Shown one piece after another: positions 10,250 to 28,148 of a DNA stretch of 50,580 nt. The stretch is from NCBI GenBank assembly GCA_010672585.1, contig JAAHGF010000007.1:52077-102656 (forward strand), in the 5' to 3' direction. A program made the position numbers and the translations under genes. Source of the stretch: Okeania sp. SIO1I7. Lineage in GTDB: Bacteria; Cyanobacteriota; Cyanobacteriia; Cyanobacteriales; Microcoleaceae. Positions within the stretch are counted from its first letter, which is position 1, and the number at the start of each line of letters is the position of its first letter. Under the pieces are notes generated by a model. It was not told the origin of the DNA. It did not search any database and worked only from the letters and a program-made list of their open reading frames with translations.

Positions 10250-11089
10250 ATGATTAATATAGGTATTGTCGGATTAGGTTTAATCGGTGGCTCAATTGGA
10301 TTGGATTTAAGAACCCTAGGTTATCGTGTTCTTGGGGTATCTCGTCGAGAAAAAACTTGTCAAAAGGCACTCGCTCTTGGGGCTGTTGATGAGGCCAGTT
10401 TGGATCTATCTTTATTATCTATTGCTGATGTAATATTTATTTGTACTCCCATAGCTGTTATTATTCCTACTTTAGAAGAGCTGATTCCTTTTCTTTCTCC
10501 CACTACAATTTTAACCGATGTCGGTTCGGTTAAGGTACCTATTGTGGAAGCTGTTTTCCAAGTTTGGCCTAATTTTGTAGGTGGACACCCCATGGCTGGC
10601 AAAGCAGAAAATGGAATTGAAGTGGCTCAGTTGGGTTTATTTCAAAATAGACCTTATGTTTTAACTCCTACGGAAAATACTCCCCTAGAGTCTATAGAGA
10701 AAGTTGAAGCAATAGCTAGGATGCTCAAGAGCAAAGTTTACTTTTGCGATCCTGATGAACATGATCGAGCTGTTGCTTGGATTTCTCATTTGCCTGTTAT
10801 GGCCAGTGCTAGTTTGATTCTTGCTTGTATGAGCGAGACTAATCCTACAGTTTTCAAGTTAGCACAAGATTTGGCTAGTTCTGGCTTCCGTGACACTAGC
10901 AGGGTGGGAGGAGGTAATCCTGAATTAGGACTAATGATGGCCAAATATAATCGTTTGGAAGTGTTACGATCACTCTATTCTTTTCGCGAACAAATTGACC
11001 AGTTTATTCAACAAATTGAACAAGAAGATTGGCAGACTCTGGAAGAAAAGTTAAGCTCTACAGAGCAAAATAGAAAACTATTTTTATAG
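10250..11089 (+). CDS. tyrA: Arogenate/prephenate dehydrogenase (TyrA)
   Basis: 279 aa from the ATG at 10250; a TTG at 10244 is in frame, but homologues usually open MNIGIVGLGLIGGS. The enzyme oxidatively decarboxylates arogenate (usual in cyanobacteria, with NADP) or prephenate in tyrosine synthesis. The Rossmann GLGLIGG motif starts at residue ~7 and is followed by VSRRE, whose basic residues fit NADP preference. Also present: DVGSVK, GGHPMAGKAENGIE, HDRAVAWISHLPVM with the catalytic His, and FRDTSRVGGGNPELG. The length is typical for a monofunctional TyrA. It stands alone, head-to-head with the pentapeptide gene. A GAAGGA-type microsatellite begins within 10 bp of the stop codon. Confidence 0.93.
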   Translation: MINIGIVGLGLIGGSIGLDLRTLGYRVLGVSRREKTCQKALALGAVDEASLDLSLLSIADVIFICTPIAVIIPTLEELIPFLSPTTILTDVGSVKVPIVEAVFQVWPNFVGGHPMAGKAENGIEVAQLGLFQNRPYVLTPTENTPLESIEKVEAIARMLKSKVYFCDPDEHDRAVAWISHLPVMASASLILACMSETNPTVFKLAQDLASSGFRDTSRVGGGNPELGLMMAKYNRLEVLRSLYSFREQIDQFIQQIEQEDWQTLEEKLSSTEQNRKLFL

Positions 11090-11091
11090 CA

Positions 11092-11191
11092 GAAGGAAGA
11101 AGGAAGAAGGAATAAGGAAGAAGGAAGAAGGAATAAGGAAGAAGGAATAAGGAAGAAGGAAGAAGGAAGAAGGAAGAAGGAAGAAGGAAGA
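11092..11191. repeat. GAAGGAA/GAATAAG microsatellite
   Basis: About 100 bp of purine-only tandem repeat (AGAAGGA and GGAATAAG units), starting 3 bp after the tyrA stop. The same vocabulary occurs at 29035-29080 on the other strand and at 41130-41165, always just after a gene's 3' end. Confidence 0.85.
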
Positions 11192-11285
11192 ATCTTACTT
11201 TCTCTGAGTTTTACAGCACTTTTGAGGAAGCATGAGGTACATTGTAAGACTATTCTTGTATTTCCTGTTCCCTGTTTCCTGCTCC

Positions 11286-20147: not shown

Positions 20148-20466
20148 CTTACCGAATAATTAATAATTAAATAATTCTATAGCCATAAGATTTGAGTTGT
20201 GAGATATTGGAAACTTTTAGGCAATAGCTCCGGAAGGTAACAGGCAACAGAGAAGAAGAAAAAAACGTATGATATGAATGTAATAATTGCTATATTCTAT
20301 ACTTTTAAGGAATACTTCAATTCTCACAACTGATTCCTGATTGCTATAGTTTAAAGCTTCCCCTTTTAAGAGGAAAAAAGAAATAATATGTCCTTATATT
20401 CAATTCCGTAACGGTTAAAACCCAAGGTAATTATCAATTATCCATTATCAATTATCAATTAATGAA
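20148..20466 (-). repeat. TTATTCGGTAAG-type element, inverted, abutting the methyltransferase
   Basis: Reverse-orientation relative of the 2051-2272 element. CTTACCGAATAATTAATAATT is at its left end. The core (AACGGTTAAAACCCAAGG, CTTATATTCAATTCCG) and the far end (CAATTATCCATTATCAATT) lie at 20395-20466. About 160 bp of unrelated sequence interrupts the middle. The last bases, ATTAATGAA, are the reverse complement of the TTCATTAAT that opens the other copies, so the element overlaps the methyltransferase start codon. Confidence 0.65.
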
Positions 20467-21634
20467 TTATCTTGACTTTTTTAGTGGTGCAGGTGCTTGG
20501 GGTTCTGGGTTACAAATGCTTGGATTAAAGCATTTAGGTTCCTATGATATAAATAAATCAGCTTGTCGCACAGCTAGAGCTAATTTAGGTAATCAAATCT
20601 TTTGCCTAGATTTAACTAAATTTAATCCAGATAAAAACTTACTTAATCCTGACTTAATAGTAGGTAGTCCTCCATGTCAAGGTTTTAGTAATGAGGGTTA
20701 TAAAAAAGAAAAAGACCCTCGAAATAGTCTAGTTTGGACGTTTTTTAATCTTGTAGAAATGCTTTCTCCTCAAGTGTGGATATTTGAAAATGTACCTGGT
20801 TTTAAACGACTATATAATGGTGTTTATTATCAAGCTCTCAAAAGTCGTCTTAATTCAATGTCTTATTACTGGAATTCATTTTTAATTGATGCAAGTCATT
20901 ATGGAGTACCACAAAAACGTCAAAGATTTTTTGTAATAGGAGCAAAAGAATTTAAACCGGAAAAACCACAGGCAACTCATTCAGAATTTGGTGAGGTTTT
21001 AGGTACAGAAAAAGCAATTACTATTTGGCAAGCAATATCTGATCTACCTCAAGTAGGAATTGGGGAAAAAGTGGGGATTTTTGATTATGATAAATTGCCT
21101 GAATTTGCATATCAAGTTTGGGCGAGAGAAGGGAGTAAAAATGTAGAAAATCACACAACTCAAAATCATAGTCAAAGAGTTTTAGAAAAAATTAGTTCTG
21201 TTCCTATGGGAGAAGGAATGGAAGTATTTATAGATAAGTATGAAGAGAATAAAGTAACTTATTGTGGAGGATATAGAAGAGCAAAAAAGCATCGACCTTC
21301 TTATACTGCTTATTGGACAAGAGGAATGACTTCTATTCATCCTGAAGAGAATAGATTTTTATCGCCTAGAGAATGTGCTCGTATTCAATCTTTTCCCGAT
21401 AACTTTATATTTAAGGGTACGACAATTGAGAACTACACACAAATTTGCAATGCTGTACCACCACTTCTAGCAAAAGCATTTGGTTCCTACATAATTAAGG
21501 TTTTAACAGGAGAAGAAATTAGTCCTATTCTTGGGAATATTTCGAGTAGTAATAATCATCAAAACTACAGAGGGAAAGTTTATAGCAAAAGTGAGGATAA
21601 TAATTTTCCAATTCAGTTGAAGTTACCATTTTAA
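20462..21634 (+). CDS. C5-cytosine DNA methyltransferase
   Basis: 390 aa, transferring methyl from AdoMet to cytosine C5 in a specific DNA sequence. Conserved motifs in order: I (DFFSGAGAWGSG, residue ~5), IV (GSPPCQGFS, catalytic Cys at about 72), VI (FENVPG, ~108), VIII (QKRQRFFVIG, ~151), a target-recognition stretch at ~180-290 (WTRGMTSIHPEENRFLSPRECARIQSFP follows) and X (NAVPPLLAKAFG, ~330). No endonuclease gene adjoins, so it looks solitary; the target cannot be read from sequence. The ATG lies in a dispersed repeat and has no Shine-Dalgarno. The stop codon lies in the first unit of the repeat array. Confidence 0.93.
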   Translation: MNYLDFFSGAGAWGSGLQMLGLKHLGSYDINKSACRTARANLGNQIFCLDLTKFNPDKNLLNPDLIVGSPPCQGFSNEGYKKEKDPRNSLVWTFFNLVEMLSPQVWIFENVPGFKRLYNGVYYQALKSRLNSMSYYWNSFLIDASHYGVPQKRQRFFVIGAKEFKPEKPQATHSEFGEVLGTEKAITIWQAISDLPQVGIGEKVGIFDYDKLPEFAYQVWAREGSKNVENHTTQNHSQRVLEKISSVPMGEGMEVFIDKYEENKVTYCGGYRRAKKHRPSYTAYWTRGMTSIHPEENRFLSPRECARIQSFPDNFIFKGTTIENYTQICNAVPPLLAKAFGSYIIKVLTGEEISPILGNISSSNNHQNYRGKVYSKSEDNNFPIQLKLPF

Positions 21635-23567
21635 ATTAGGCATCTCCACCAAATGAGGGAATAGGAAATACTCATTCAATTTAGACAAACATCTTGATGA
21701 TTTTTCCTGATTCCCTCTTCCTTCTTGCTTGTTGCTTCTTTTTTAAATTAGGCATCTCCACCAAATGAGGGAATAGGAAATACTCAATTCATTTTAGATA
21801 AATATCTTGATGATTTTTCCTGATTCCTTCTTGCTTGTTGCTTCTTTTTTAAATTAGGCATCTCCACCAAATGAGGGAATAGGAAATACTTATTCATTTT
21901 AGACAAATATCTTGATGATTTTTCCCTGATTCCTTCTTGCTCCTTTCTTCTTGCTTCTTCCGTAAAGGGGGAATAGGAAATACTTATTCATTTTAGATAA
22001 ATATCTTGATGATTTTTCCCTGATTCCTTCTTGCTCCTTTCTTCTTGCTTCTTCCGTAAAGGGGGAATAGGAAATACTTATTCATTTTAGACAAATATCT
22101 TGATGATTTTTCCCTGATTCCTTCTTGCTCCTTTCTTCTTGCTTCTTCCGTAAAGGGGGAATAGGAAATACTTATTCATTTTAGATAAATATCTTGATGA
22201 TTTTTCCTGATTCCTTCTTGCTCCTTTCTTCTTGCTTCTTCAGTAAAGGGGGAATAGGAAATACTTATTCATTTTAGATAAATATCTTGATGATTTTTCC
22301 TGATTCCTTCTTGCTCCTTTCTTCTTGCTTCTTCAGTAAAGAGGGAATAGGAAATACTCATTCATTTTAGATAAATATCTTGATGATTTTTCCTGATTCC
22401 TTCTTGCTCCTTTCTTCTTGCTTCTTCAGTAAAGAGGGAATAGGAAATACTCATTCATTTTAGATAAATATCTTGATGATTTTTCCTGATTCCTTCTTGC
22501 TCCTTTCTTCTTGCTTCTTCAGTAAAGAGGGAATAGGAAATACTCATTCATTTTAGATAAATATCTTGATGATTTTTCCTGATTCCCTCTTCCTGATTCC
22601 CTCTTCCTTCTTGCTTCTTGCTTCTTTTTTAAATTAGGCATCTCCACCAAATGAGGGAATAGGAAATACTCATTCAATTTAGACAAATATCTTGATGATT
22701 TTTCCTGATTCCTTCTTGCTCCTTTCTTCTTGCTTCTTCAGTAAAGGGGGAATAGGAAATACTTATTTATTTTAGATAAATATCTTGATGATTTTTCCTG
22801 ATTCCTTCTTGCTTGTTCCTTCTTGCTTCTTCAGTAAAGGGGGAATAGGAAATACTCATTCAATTTAGACAAATATCTTGATGATTTTTCCTGATTCCTT
22901 CTTCCTTGTTCCTTCTTGCTTCTTCAGTAAAGGGGGAATAGGAAATACTTATTCATTTTAGATAAATATCTTGATGATTTTTCCTGATTCCTTCTTCCTT
23001 GTTCCTTCTTGCTTCTTGCTTCTTTTCTAAATTAGACATCTCCACCAAATGGGGGAATAGGAAATACTCAATTCATTTTAGATAAATATCTTGATGATTT
23101 TTCCTGATTCCTTCTTGCTCCTTTCTTCTTGCTTCTTCAGTAAAGGGGGAATAGGAAATACTTATTCATTTTAGACAAATATCTTGCTTGATGATTTTTC
23201 CTGATTCCTTCTTGCTTCTTCCTTCTTGCTTCTTTTTTAAATTAGGCATCTCCACCAAATGAGGGAATAGGAAATACTCAATTCATTTTAGATAAATATC
23301 TTGATGATTTTTCCTGATTCCTTCTTGCTCCTTTCTTCTTGCTTCTTCAGTAAAGGGGGAATAGGAAATACTTATTCATTTTAGATAAATATCTTGCTTG
23401 ATGATTTTTCCTTCTTGCTTCTTGCTTGTTGCTTCTTTTTTAAATTAGACATCTCCACCAAATGAGGGAATAGGAAATACTCATTTAATTTAGACAAATA
23501 TCTTGATGATTTTTCCTTCTTCCCTCTTCCTTCTTGCTTCTTCCTTCTTGCTTCTTCCTTCTTTCTT
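21632..23567. repeat. 19-unit tandem array, 93-126 bp per unit
   Basis: GGGAATAGGAAATACT recurs 19 times (first at 21657, last at 23465). Short units are 93-94 bp; long ones (106-126 bp) carry an extra AAATTAGGCATCTCCACCAA block or a doubled pyrimidine segment. Each unit has a purine arm GGAATAGGAAA, a middle TAGATAAATATCTTGATG, and TTTCCTGATTCC that can pair with the purine arm, then a pyrimidine run (CTTCTTGCTCCTTTC). The array fills the whole space between two convergent genes and touches both stop codons. Not CRISPR: there are no unique spacers. Confidence 0.93.
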
Positions 23568-26500
23568 TTAAATCAAACTAGGACATTTCAAATTGACCAT
23601 TCCCAATCGCACATGAGAACCATCCTTAAGAATAGCTTCTAAGGAAATTTTCATCTCTGGCGCAAATTCAATTACTTCTAATTCTCCCCAAAAACCAGAA
23701 TATTTAGCCTCTGGAATTTCTGGATGAATTTCTCCTACGTCTGGACGATGTAAATTAGCAGGAACTTCTCTGATTACTTTGCCTGCTACAATTAATTCTA
23801 CTGTTACTGGGGGAGATGTTTTTCCTACTACCCATCCACCTATACAAATAGAACTAATATTTTGCTCTATTCCTGGTTTGGGTACATCTATAGAACAACC
23901 AACTATTTCTGTATCTTTTTCATATAAAGAAATACCAACTTCGACATTTGTTTTAATCCTTAAACTGAAGTCTTCTTGTTGTCGAGTTAGATGAGGGTTA
24001 TAACAAGGATCTTCATCTATTAAATATTTCCACCTTTGCTTCATTTTCTGAATTTCTTGTTGGAAACGTAATTGTTTTTCTCCTGTATTTTCTACTCCCC
24101 TACTTTTCGATTCATGGTGATACAAAACAGCGTGAGGTACATAAATATTTCGATAACCTTTATCTAGCATTTTTAAACATAAATCTACGTCGTTAAATGC
24201 TATGGCTAATTCTTCATCAAACCCACCCATTTCTTCAAATACTTCTCGCCGACACATTAAACAAGCGGCAGTTACGGCGGAATAATTATTCACAGAAATA
24301 ATTTGACCATTATATCCAGTATCAGTGGGAGAAAAACCACGATGACTATGGTCTGCTATACTCCTCATTCCTAATACTACTCCGGCGTGTTGAATTGTAT
24401 TATCTGGGTATAATAATAAAGCACCGACTGCTCCTATTTTTTCTCTTTGTGCTTGTTCTATCATTGCTTCTAACCAGTCAGGAGTTTTTACTTCTGTGTC
24501 ATTATTTAAGAATAGTAAATAATCTCCTTCTGCTTTTTCTGTGGCAAAATTATTGAGCTTGGAAAAATTGAAAGGAATATCATATTCATAACATTTGAAA
24601 CGTTGTGGTTCTTGATTTTTCCACCATTGGATAATATCTTTTGTTTTTGATTCGTCGCTGCCATTGTCTATCAATATTACTTCGTAATTTGGGTAGGTTG
24701 TTTTGCTAAATATTGACTCTAGACATCTATCTAAAATTTCTCCTAAGTTTCTGGTGGGAATGATAATACTGACTAGCTTTTTCTCTGAAATTTGATAACG
24801 AACTTGATAGAAACCAGGATGTTGAGTGAGGTTATAAATTGTTCCTTTTTCTCCTCGTCTTTCTAATGCTTCTGCTAATGCTTTTTTGGCTGTTTCTGCT
24901 GAAATTTTCTGATTTATTGCTACTCCATTTTCAGAAATTTTGTTGTGATAAAGTATTTTGGGAATGTGGAATATTTTTTGACTTGTTTCGCTTAAGCGCA
25001 GAATTAAATCATATTCATAACTATTTTCATATCCTGCTCGAAAACCGTTCAATTTTTCTAGTAATTCTCGGCGATATATACACAAATGACCAGTGTACAT
25101 TCGAGATAAAAATGAGTCTGGACACCAGTCTGGTTTAAAGTATGGTTGAGTTAATTCCCCTTCTTTTGTTAATTTATCTTCGTCTGAATAAACCATATCT
25201 GCTTCTGGATGTTTATTCAGAAATAGCGCCATTTCATAAAGAGCATCTAGGGTTAAAATATCATCAGAATTTAACAGGGTAATAAAATCTCCTGTTGTTA
25301 ATGCTAAGGCGGCATTTAAGTTTGTGGCAATATCTCTACTTTCATCTTTCAAGACTAATTTTACTCTGTTATCTGTTTCTACATTTTGCGGAAGTTTATC
25401 GGCAATATAACAAATTTCCCAGTTTGTATAAACTTGATTTATAACTGATTCAATTGTCTCTGGGAACTCTGGAGATGCTGTTTTTTCTGGCAAGATAATA
25501 CTAATTAATGGTTGATATCGAAAGGTGTCTAAATTTTCCGACATCTTCTTTAGTTTTTCTGAACTTGGTAAGTTTTCTTTTAGCCATAATTGATAGGTAT
25601 CTTCTTTTTCAATGACAGGAGAAGTCGAGGGAGAAATAGCAATATTTGTTTGTTCCTTATTTTCTATTTCCTGCTCCCTTTTCAAAAGAGCGATATTTTC
25701 CTGTTGCCTATTACTTGTTCCCTGTTGCCTATTCCCTGTTTCCGGTTCCTTTAAAGTCTTTTTTTTTGGTAATATATTTTCTAACTGAGCCTGAATTTCA
25801 GGGTCATCTGGATTAATTTGTAAACCTAACTGATAAAAGGCGATCGCTCCGTGAGTTTTCCCTTTTTTTACTAATGTATTGCCTAGTTGTAAATACAGTT
25901 TGTGGTCTTCTGGTTTGATTTCTAATGCTTTATGATAAAGCTGTTCATTTTCTGGATTATTTTCTATGGCTTTTTCGTACCATTTTATGGCTTCATCTAA
26001 ATCTAATTGAGCACGTTTTTTCAGGGCATCTCCTAATTTTTGATAAGCTTCTGGTAGGTCTGCTTTTAATTCTATGGCGCGACGATATGGGTCTATTGCT
26101 TCTTGCCAATTTCCTGCTGACCACAAAGCTTTTCCTAAGTTAATATAAGACCAAGAAAAGTCAGGATTTAATTCTATTGCTTTACGATAAGGTTCAACAG
26201 CTTCTGACCATTTTTCTAGTTTTAATAGACAGTCTCCTAAGTTATTATGAGACCAAGAAAAGTCAGGATTTAACTCTATAGCTTTGCGGTATGCTTCAAC
26301 AGCTTCTGACCATTTTTCTAATTTCTTGAGAGCTTCTCCTAAGCTATTGTGATACCAAGAATTATCTGATTTTATTTCACTTGCTTTTTTATATACTTTG
26401 GCAGCTTCTTTCCATTTTTCCTGTTGTGAGAAAATTTCTCCTAATTTTCCATAGGGAATATCAAATTCTGGATAATTTTCTGTTGCTTGACTGTAAGCTT

Positions 26501-28148
26501 TGATTGCCTCTTCTATTTTTCCTTGTTCTTGAAAAACTTCTCCATATCTATAATAAATTCCTCCAATTTTTTGCTTGATTTCTATTTTGTTTGGTTCTAG
26601 TTGTTTGGCTTTTTGATAATTTTGTAAAGCTGACTCTAGCTGTCCTTGATTTAATAAAGCATCTGCTAATTTTTCGTAAGGTTCTACATTATTTGGATTT
26701 GCAGATATGACTCTTTGATAACAAGCAACTGCTTCTCCCCACTGCCCATTGTGAATTAAAATTTCTCCTAATTTATAACTAGCTTCTACTAACTGTGGCT
26801 TTAACTGAATTGCTCCTTGATAACAAGCGATCGCCTGTTCTAATTGACCATTTTCATTCAGAGTATTTCCGGTGTATAAAAATTCTTCTGCTGTGGCTTT
26901 TCCTGGTTCTAGTCTTAATACTTGATATAAACATTCTGCTGCTGCTGCTGACTGATTAAGTTGAGTATAAATTTTGGCTAAATTACGATATGCTCCAGCA
27001 AATTCTGGTTTAATTGCTATTGCTCTGCGATAATATTGTATGGCTTTTTCCCACTGTTGTTGTTGAGCAAATATAGTTCCTAGATTTGCATGGACTTGTA
27101 CAAAATCTGGTTTAATTTCTAATGCTTTTTTGTACGAATCTAATGCTGCTTGTAATTTCCCCATAGCTTGTAAAGAATTACCGATTATTTTATAAGCTTT
27201 GGGTTCTGGTTTAATTGAAATAATTTTCTGACTTATAGTAATTGCTTGTTGCCATTTTTTCTGATTCACATAAGTCTCTGCCACCATCATATAAGTTTCT
27301 ATATCTTCAGTATTAATCGCAGTTGTTGGTTGAGGTGGAATATTATTTGTCTGTTCTGCCGCAGTCAGGGTATCATTAGCATTTGCTCCATCGTTATTTA
27401 AACTGCCAACTAAAGTATCTTGGGCTTCTAATTCTTGACTAGAAACTAAATTATATTTATTAGAGCTAATATCTGTTGAAGTTTCTACTTTTGTATTAGT
27501 ATTAGTTGGTCTAAGTTCGATAGCTCTGCGAAAACAAACTGTCGCTTCATCTAGGTTCCCTTGCTCCTTTAAAGCTGCTCCTAAATTTTGATAAGCTTCT
27601 GCTGAATTAGCATTTAATTTAATAGCAATTCGGTAACAAGATATTGCCTCGTTTAAACTACCCTGTTGCTGTAGATTTTTACCTAAATTAAGAATTTCTT
27701 CTAAGGTTGCTTTTTCAGGTTCTAGAGAAAATGCTTTGTATTGACAATATGTAGCAGATTTTTCGTTACTCAAACATAACCATACTTTTGCCATATTGCG
27801 ATAAGCTCCGGCAAAATCTGGCTTCACTTCTACAGCTTTTTGATAATAAGATATTGCCTCTTGCCATTTTTGCTGCATGGCGTATAAACTGCCGAGATTA
27901 GCATATATTTCCGGCCAATTTGATTTAATTTCTAACGCTTTTTTATAGTAATTTTCTGCAGCTTCCAATTTTCCTTTTGCTTGCCAAACATTACCTAAAG
28001 TTTTGTAAGCTGGAGCATAATTTTCTTCTATTTTTATAGCTAATTCACAGGAAGCGATCGCCTCATCTAATTTTTTTTCGGCTACATAAGCTTCTGCTTT
28101 TTGGTGAAATTTTTCTGCTGGGCTTTCTTGAGGATTTGTTGATGTCAT
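23568..28148 (-). CDS. TPR protein with two GT2 glycosyltransferase domains
   Basis: 1526 aa. Residues 1-790 are some 20 tetratricopeptide repeats (AYKTLGNVWQAKGKLEAAENYYKKALEIK and similar). A linker at ~800-832, rich in NRQQG, precedes two GT-A glycosyltransferase family 2 domains. The first (~882-1090) has ISIILPE, LLNSDDILT and VYSDEDKL. The second (~1123-1360) has SIIIPTRN, DNGSDES, FLNNDTEV and GGFDEELAIAFNDVDLCL, typical of O-antigen/RfbC-type enzymes. A small C-terminal beta domain (~1430-1526) follows. Probably a cytoplasmic glycan-assembly enzyme. Its gene neighbour is another TPR-glycosyltransferase, suggesting a shared surface polysaccharide or protein glycosylation task. The substrate is unknown. 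Confidence 0.9.
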   Translation of the reverse strand: MTSTNPQESPAEKFHQKAEAYVAEKKLDEAIASCELAIKIEENYAPAYKTLGNVWQAKGKLEAAENYYKKALEIKSNWPEIYANLGSLYAMQQKWQEAISYYQKAVEVKPDFAGAYRNMAKVWLCLSNEKSATYCQYKAFSLEPEKATLEEILNLGKNLQQQGSLNEAISCYRIAIKLNANSAEAYQNLGAALKEQGNLDEATVCFRRAIELRPTNTNTKVETSTDISSNKYNLVSSQELEAQDTLVGSLNNDGANANDTLTAAEQTNNIPPQPTTAINTEDIETYMMVAETYVNQKKWQQAITISQKIISIKPEPKAYKIIGNSLQAMGKLQAALDSYKKALEIKPDFVQVHANLGTIFAQQQQWEKAIQYYRRAIAIKPEFAGAYRNLAKIYTQLNQSAAAAECLYQVLRLEPGKATAEEFLYTGNTLNENGQLEQAIACYQGAIQLKPQLVEASYKLGEILIHNGQWGEAVACYQRVISANPNNVEPYEKLADALLNQGQLESALQNYQKAKQLEPNKIEIKQKIGGIYYRYGEVFQEQGKIEEAIKAYSQATENYPEFDIPYGKLGEIFSQQEKWKEAAKVYKKASEIKSDNSWYHNSLGEALKKLEKWSEAVEAYRKAIELNPDFSWSHNNLGDCLLKLEKWSEAVEPYRKAIELNPDFSWSYINLGKALWSAGNWQEAIDPYRRAIELKADLPEAYQKLGDALKKRAQLDLDEAIKWYEKAIENNPENEQLYHKALEIKPEDHKLYLQLGNTLVKKGKTHGAIAFYQLGLQINPDDPEIQAQLENILPKKKTLKEPETGNRQQGTSNRQQENIALLKREQEIENKEQTNIAISPSTSPVIEKEDTYQLWLKENLPSSEKLKKMSENLDTFRYQPLISIILPEKTASPEFPETIESVINQVYTNWEICYIADKLPQNVETDNRVKLVLKDESRDIATNLNAALALTTGDFITLLNSDDILTLDALYEMALFLNKHPEADMVYSDEDKLTKEGELTQPYFKPDWCPDSFLSRMYTGHLCIYRRELLEKLNGFRAGYENSYEYDLILRLSETSQKIFHIPKILYHNKISENGVAINQKISAETAKKALAEALERRGEKGTIYNLTQHPGFYQVRYQISEKKLVSIIIPTRNLGEILDRCLESIFSKTTYPNYEVILIDNGSDESKTKDIIQWWKNQEPQRFKCYEYDIPFNFSKLNNFATEKAEGDYLLFLNNDTEVKTPDWLEAMIEQAQREKIGAVGALLLYPDNTIQHAGVVLGMRSIADHSHRGFSPTDTGYNGQIISVNNYSAVTAACLMCRREVFEEMGGFDEELAIAFNDVDLCLKMLDKGYRNIYVPHAVLYHHESKSRGVENTGEKQLRFQQEIQKMKQRWKYLIDEDPCYNPHLTRQQEDFSLRIKTNVEVGISLYEKDTEIVGCSIDVPKPGIEQNISSICIGGWVVGKTSPPVTVELIVAGKVIREVPANLHRPDVGEIHPEIPEAKYSGFWGELEVIEFAPEMKISLEAILKDGSHVRLGMVNLKCPSLI

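Follow-up and report, generated by a model that had tools for sequence, protein, structure and literature searches.

A minisatellite that looks built from a gene-end hairpin, seven-base repeats and one mobile-element end in the cyanobacterium Okeania

Among the repeats of cyanobacterial genomes, the heptamer direct repeats go by the name of STRR. Passages of one report describe heptamer direct repeats in both cyanobacteria and Beggiatoaceae (PMC4679880). Repeat units that fold as hairpins are represented by REP and BIME sequences, which according to parts of another source are often located between convergent genes (PMC3733652). Tandem arrays can also be tied to mobile elements, as in BrickBuilt of Porphyromonas gingivalis, a minisatellite lying inside a MITE and reported as a 23-bp tandem in the complete element, found 19 times in one strain (PMC4596501). 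In eukaryotes, a review traces minisatellites and satellites to short flanking repeats together with parts of transposable elements (PMC6947457). Here we describe a tandem array of Okeania sp. SIO1I7 (G000) that, judged from its sequence, resembles a minisatellite assembled from a hairpin at a gene end, 7-base repeats and one mobile-element end, and we follow the same gap through related species.

The array and its parts

The window, i.e., the whole stretch of 50,580 nucleotides that was analyzed, contains 19 units in tandem, in all of which GGGAATAGGAAATACT is exact (first copy at 21657, last at 23466), which occupy the entire 21632-23567 gap between two convergent genes (Table 1). This agrees with a sequence-only reading of the same DNA, which had described an array of hairpin units bounded by both stop codons. 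The units are spaced by 93, 94, 106, 109, 112, 116, 119, or 126 bp, and the top TRF score across the array, 2439, lies far above chance expectation. On the left, the methyltransferase gene end TTTTAA is the start of the array edge, with the stop TAA at 21632-21634, and on the right the array is bounded by the glycosyltransferase stop (23568-23570, minus strand). An edge shared by both genes had also been noticed, and the octamer TTTTAAAT is indeed present at both array ends and both gene ends; it has eight further occurrences in the window, so that two gene ends could easily share it by chance. A coding array was rejected, the longest ORF entirely inside the gap being 55 aa, and in an Rfam scan of the window only two tRNAs reached gathering scores, with no known RNA family in the array.

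Table 1. Features of the array and its bordering genes (window coordinates)
Feature	Position	Strand	Basis
C5-cytosine DNA methyltransferase gene, 390 aa, left border	20462..21634	+	PF00145, E 2.3e-57
Minisatellite, 19 units, spacings 93-126 bp, whole gap	21632..23567	.	TRF repeat scan
First of seven heads, left end of the Okeania MITE (ATTAG[A/G]CATCTCCACCAAATG[A/G])	21635..21656	+	
Remaining heads	starts 21747, 21853, 22633, 23031, 23241, 23444		
Hairpin core of unit 1, methyltransferase-adjacent; predicted stem on both strands, -21.0 / -22.2 kcal/mol	21655..21722	.	
Units 3-9, seven consecutive short units (94 or 93 bp), very similar, no intervening MITE head	21875..22528	.	
Two-unit block present twice, units 15-16 (210 bp) and 17-18 (203 bp), a higher-order repeat	23053..23465	.	
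Hairpin core of unit 19, glycosyltransferase-adjacent; retains the TTCTTCCCTC arm, present in G003 and G004 too	23464..23531	.	
Heptad tract (TTCCTTC/TTCTTGC), array end, continuing into TTTTAAATC	23510..23567	+	
TPR-glycosyltransferase gene, 1526 aa, right border	23568..28148	-	TPR families; PF00535, E 2e-39

Comparison between species divides the unit into three parts, namely a hairpin-forming core (GAGGGAATAGGAAATACT...TTTTTCC...), pyrimidine-rich heptads, and, at seven places, the left end of a MITE. The heptads (TTCCTTC, TTCTTGC) connect the units and their number sets the linker length, the short units of Okeania sp. SIO2B3 (G002) measuring 79, 79, 93, 79, and 100 bp with differences of 14 and 21, both multiples of 7, and those of SIO1I7 93 or 94 bp. 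The head, ATTAG[A/G]CATCTCCACCAAATG, accounts for the TTTTAAATTAG edge that precedes seven of the 19 units (TTTCTAAATTAG before unit 15) and is missing from the other 12; this edge is explained as a stop codon together with one end of a MITE that is dispersed in the genome. The left arm GGGAATAGGAAATACT, exact in all units of SIO1I7, is exact in five of the seven units of SIO2B3 and is found in the units of O. hirsuta PAB10Feb10-1 (G003) and SIO2C9 (G004) as well. All units but 18 and 19, 17 in total, have the motif TTTCC(C)TGATTCC; pairing arms had been claimed for each unit, which is true of most but slightly too strong as a general statement. Interior units had likewise been called the most alike, and the cores of units 6-9 do differ at one position at most, but 75-bp cores are also identical between units 3 and 5 and between units 15 and 17, and likeness is therefore block-wise. 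The two-unit block of units 15-16 and 17-18 is a pattern as left by unequal exchange.

The heads are the left end of a dispersed Okeania MITE of 104-146 bp with the ends TAGACATCTCC/GGAGATGTCTA, a short non-coding sequence with terminal inverted repeats and many dispersed copies. Of 28 loci retrieved from among the good matches, one of them (L035) chosen for its heptads only, 20 have both ends. Allowing up to two mismatches and including the array heads, left ends number 78 in SIO1I7, 76 in SIO2B3, 68 in SIO2C9, 55 in O. hirsuta, and 47 in SIO3B5 (G001), and a reversed-pattern control gave 0 in all five genomes. One insertion (L111) is matched by an empty site in three relatives (G003, G001, G004). 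A TA-only duplication would predict these sites to be 3 bp longer than they are, and TA and TATTA are both possible target duplications. A second, less clear insertion probe revealed an insertion common to SIO2B3 and SIO2C9 and a longer stretch in SIO3B5. As candidates for an autonomous parent transposase of the MITE, six matches to PF13358 were obtained, four of which contain internal stops. Of the 20 complete MITE copies, some of them orthologues, 19 are preceded by A-x and followed by x-T, x being the same base on both sides, and the family (L033-L047, L100-L111) holds a variable run of GGGAATA/GGGAGTA-type heptads, i.e., it is a MITE that carries a small minisatellite of its own.

The unit count of 19 is taken from a draft assembly (9.48 Mb, 109 contigs), in which tandem arrays may be mis-sized, since a tandem array of a 337-bp unit on the same contig (window 49723-50580; G000:C77 up to 102656; 2.5 copies, 99% alike) reaches the window end and meets 100 N, a scaffold gap or masked stretch, after which the 337-bp unit resumes; L099 1-657 is the same DNA and not additional copies. 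An assembly artefact is nevertheless highly improbable for the array in the gap, as the assemblies of three relatives carry units in the same gap, the units differ from each other by many substitutions, and there is no N within the window.

Hairpin folding and possible transcript ends

Trimmed to their arms, 29 units from four species fold with a mean z of -2.6 on the plus strand and -1.9 on the minus strand, compared to -0.16 for random window segments, folding against shuffled controls having been proposed in the sequence-only reading; untrimmed pieces of units and flanks gain only modestly over shuffles (z -0.25 to -2.4). On the plus strand, 18 of the 19 trimmed units of SIO1I7 range from -1.6 to -4.0 and unit 18 reaches -0.8, and this unit together with units 6 and 7 of SIO2B3 makes up the three of 29 that are no better than -0.9 on that strand. 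Because trimming relied on the known arms and the units are related, these scores lend support and are not proof. On the RNA strand of the glycosyltransferase gene, the unit adjoining that gene folds at -18.1, -16.6, -17.7, and -16.8 kcal/mol, its stem being kept in all four species, and the other 25 units average -13.0 kcal/mol with three as stable (Mann-Whitney p 0.005, the units not being independent). In SIO2B3, this edge unit has a changed arm that still pairs as G-U in the glycosyltransferase RNA but is mismatched on the other strand (-16.6 vs. -11.3). Weaker homogenization at the array edge could also explain why the edge unit has kept its stem. The methyltransferase-adjacent units of three species are not significantly stabler on their own strand (p 0.11; 13 of the 25 others are as stable), and on the glycosyltransferase strand the stems of most interior units are weaker.

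Judging from the predicted folds, a terminator role is plausible for the gene-adjacent hairpins, and to this extent the earlier suggestion of a bidirectional terminator may stand, but the folds depart from an intrinsic terminator in that the stem is not G+C-rich, the loop is long, and the U-tract is weak. For the array as a whole a terminator role is unsupported. A consensus terminator scan returned 4 sites in 5 kb vs. 3.1 in shuffles and none in the array, and as the scan accepts loops of 3-8 only, the long-loop hairpins of the array are invisible to it. We consider it unlikely that the array is a selected bidirectional terminator block, whose serial hairpins would halt polymerases approaching from both sides and keep antisense transcripts from arising between methyltransferase and glycosyltransferase. 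Such a block would fit the exact position of the array between two stops, the hairpins of most units beating background on the plus strand, and the occurrence of the largest arrays (19 and 7) in the two species whose methyltransferase is full-length, compared to 2 units beside the truncated gene of O. hirsuta, 1 beside the relic of SIO2C9, and 0 in SIO3B5, where none was found within 6 kb behind the glycosyltransferase gene. However, the five genomes are not independent and the neighbor genes of SIO3B5 differ too, the glycosyltransferase-strand stems are weaker in most interior units, and no canonical terminator is present. The further suggestion of an RNA-structure array, selected as an array, finds no support, given these weaker interior stems and a copy number that varies from 0 to 19 among species. 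As a bolder and quite improbable speculation, the array might act as a graded bidirectional transcription barrier in which serial amplification of a 3′-end hairpin is adaptive, its length tracking an intact methyltransferase head-on to the glycosyltransferase and the array being rebuilt independently in each species from whatever microhomology is available.

The same gap in related species and the probable growth of the array

The orthologous gap holds 19 units in SIO1I7, 7 in SIO2B3, 2 in O. hirsuta, and 1 in SIO2C9, and zero units were found behind the glycosyltransferase gene in SIO3B5 and in a Trichodesmium. As a tandem repeat confined to a single locus, with units of tens of bp and a copy number of 19, 7, 2, 1, and 0 across five Okeania species, the array belongs among the bacterial minisatellites or VNTRs. 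In SIO2B3, O. hirsuta, and SIO2C9 the gap has the glycosyltransferase on one side and the methyltransferase or its remains on the other, followed by the same two upstream genes; SIO3B5 has no methyltransferase and neither upstream gene within 6 kb behind the glycosyltransferase gene, and the Trichodesmium has the two upstream genes without the methyltransferase. At this locus, the methyltransferase is full-length in SIO1I7 and SIO2B3, the two species with the longest arrays; its first 165 residues were not found there in O. hirsuta, and a 51-codon relic is left in SIO2C9. A tree built from 1,230 bp of the glycosyltransferase gene places SIO1I7 and SIO2B3 together (ultrafast bootstrap 87). Both have the fusion of head and core as well as the short joint CTTCAGT[AC]AAG[AG]GGG, and their long joints differ.

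Across 98 genomes, SIO1I7 included, nine candidates were scored per genome, and among the matches listed from these some match occurred in 45 genomes, mostly to heptads or MITE ends; full-core matches among the scored candidates were confined to the orthologous gap of the four unit-bearing species. Within SIO1I7, the 40 of 181 first-look candidates that were scored gave 45 matches, 19 of which are the array itself. Another 24 fall within query positions 44-93 (right arm and heptads), and the last two of the remaining 26 span 18-86 and 12-54. The former (L048) proved on re-comparison to match in the heptads only, and the latter (C19:123985-124025) is weak, 34/43 positions in mid-core with the arms unmatched, and may be due to chance or to a remote relative. 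A genome search for single copies had been proposed earlier; SIO2C9 has a single core in the gap, and no second array and no other whole core was seen among the 40 of 181 candidates scored in SIO1I7. That the array is a cluster of a mobile or dispersed, REP/BIME-like hairpin family is scarcely credible. Its heads are the ends of a real dispersed MITE and there is the one partial mid-core match elsewhere, but among the candidates scored in SIO1I7 and in the 98 genomes no whole core was seen outside the orthologous gap, and the GTAG and CGTC tags are absent from both strands of 21632-23567.

A survey of 800 kb of SIO1I7 (40 stretches of 20 kb, 8.4% of the genome) yielded 18 intergenic arrays with a period of at least 40 and at least 2.5 copies, intergenic meaning that no 100-aa ORF covers most of the array, so that some may be coding; the 18 do not include L135:18226-18515, an intergenic array of low score. 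Intergenic minisatellites are hence a habit of this genome, large examples being L141:12445-13783 (145 bp x 9.3) and L154:17131-18440 (139 bp x 9.6). The array described here scores above all surveyed intergenic arrays and below two arrays inside ORFs. None of the 17 other intergenic arrays examined contains a MITE end. Heptad runs are present in 7 of these 17, with 6.3 expected in array-length-matched non-coding windows (133/300 draws as high) and 2.7 in unit-length-matched windows (2/300 draws as high), and as the enrichment depends on the control, we do not claim heptads as general seeds of minisatellites. A possible second case like the array described here is the 94-bp x 4 array at L154:12949-13325 (98% alike, TTCCTTC heptads). 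It is flanked by convergent ORFs, reaching 12 bp into the end of the right one and lying 1,967 bp from the left one. Heptads of the type TTCCTGATTCCTTCTTCCCTCTTCC are also contained in a 234-bp tandem array of SIO2C9 (L112, G004:C1:16000-17600), and in the window 14.6 copies of the heptad AGAAGGA occupy 11091-11192, right behind an ORF ending at 11089.

The array could be a purely neutral, functionless minisatellite, its hairpin a by-product of opposing purine-rich and pyrimidine-rich heptads. This is a real possibility, though a rather doubtful one. Intergenic minisatellites are common in SIO1I7, as the 18 surveyed arrays attest, copy number differs between species, and arrays of the heptad type abound (in 800 kb, TRF gives 368 rows with a period of 7, 14, or 21, overlapping ones included). 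On the other hand, the left arm GGGAATAGGAAATACT has been retained through most units of four species, the stem of the edge unit on the glycosyltransferase strand is kept in all four, and the trimmed hairpins lie above background.

The joints between units lie at microhomologies of 4-8 bp (TTCC, TTCTT, TTTTAAAT) and differ between species, suggesting several separate duplications of the locus. In O. hirsuta the order is unfused, i.e., methyltransferase stop, MITE left end, intervening DNA, and core, the whole being duplicated once; the span between its two AGGGAATAGG copies is 54 bp, and a deletion between these repeats predicts the fused head-core of SIO1I7 and SIO2B3, point changes aside. 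Amplification seeded from a gene 3′ end, as had been suggested, turned out to be largely right: the duplicated segment includes the end of the methyltransferase gene, the repeat re-entering it after TTCC 25 bp before the end of the stop in O. hirsuta and, also at TTCC, about 150 bp before the end of the stop in SIO2B3, whose array contains a decayed copy of the last 50 codons, 78% identical. The suggestion fits SIO1I7 as well, where the long joint is located at the TTTTAAAT common to both gene ends, about two bases off an exact exchange there. Mean core identity is 90.6% within SIO1I7, 86.1% between SIO1I7 and SIO2B3, 90.5% within SIO2B3, and 90.0% between SIO2B3 and O. hirsuta. The units of SIO2B3 being as like those of O. 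hirsuta as each other, and unit 18 of SIO1I7 grouping among SIO2B3 units in a weakly supported unit tree, homogenization within species is incomplete.

These observations suggest a stepwise history. It would have begun with a single core hairpin adjoining the glycosyltransferase stop, as in SIO2C9, whose one copy is the positional equivalent of unit 19 in SIO1I7; we infer that this single-copy state is ancestral, loss in SIO2C9 being the alternative. A MITE left end would then have come to lie just behind the methyltransferase stop, followed by the unfused core, with one duplication giving the state of O. hirsuta, and loss of 54 bp between the two AGGGAATAGG direct repeats would have fused the MITE end to the core in SIO1I7 and SIO2B3. 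Duplication presumably proceeded by replication slippage or unequal exchange between short repeats, and exchange of one- and two-unit blocks probably followed; in our reading, slippage and unequal exchange account for the expansion and were mostly neutral. The single copy is a probable 3′-end hairpin. With less certainty, the original hairpin may have served as a 3′-end structure for the glycosyltransferase transcript and, once the methyltransferase gene abutted the array, for the transcript of that gene too, and the extra copies may mostly be passengers, tolerated, as we propose, because whichever unit adjoins a gene can still do the 3′-end job. Taken as a whole, we find it likely that the array is a lineage-specific minisatellite grown in place from a hairpin that is probably a 3′-end structure, with its copies mostly passengers.

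Comparison with known systems

An array of this kind is already known, and what is unusual is that its stages of growth are preserved in sister species. Among the matches listed from mostly open literature, none concerned this locus or this MITE, the matches to the MITE end letters being unrelated by title. Minisatellites are usually seen only once they have grown, and here one copy, an initial duplication, and arrays of short and of great length can be compared with their joints still readable, so that the likely rules of bacterial minisatellite growth can be traced step by step, namely microhomology joints, heptad slippage, a deletion fusing a mobile-element end to a gene-end hairpin, and block exchange. 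A caution also follows, in that arrays of gene-end hairpins need not be selected as arrays.

As these systems are described in the cited sources, the Okeania units resemble REP and BIME sequences in forming hairpins and sitting between convergent genes, but differ in that the array lacks the GTAG/CGTC tag on both strands and its core was not seen dispersed among the scored candidates (PMC3733652). Like the heptamer repeats of cyanobacteria, the array has 7-bp intergenic repeats of the TTCCTTC type, which serve as its linkers, but they are only one part of a unit of 93-126 bp (PMC4679880). In BrickBuilt, too, a tandem array in the intergenic DNA of a bacterium is associated with a MITE, and the Okeania locus differs from it as reported in that one MITE end has been caught in a single array (PMC4596501). 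Compared to the eukaryotic minisatellites and satellites, so far as that source portrays them, the Okeania array is bacterial and confined to a single locus, and its intermediate stages still exist in sister species (PMC6947457).
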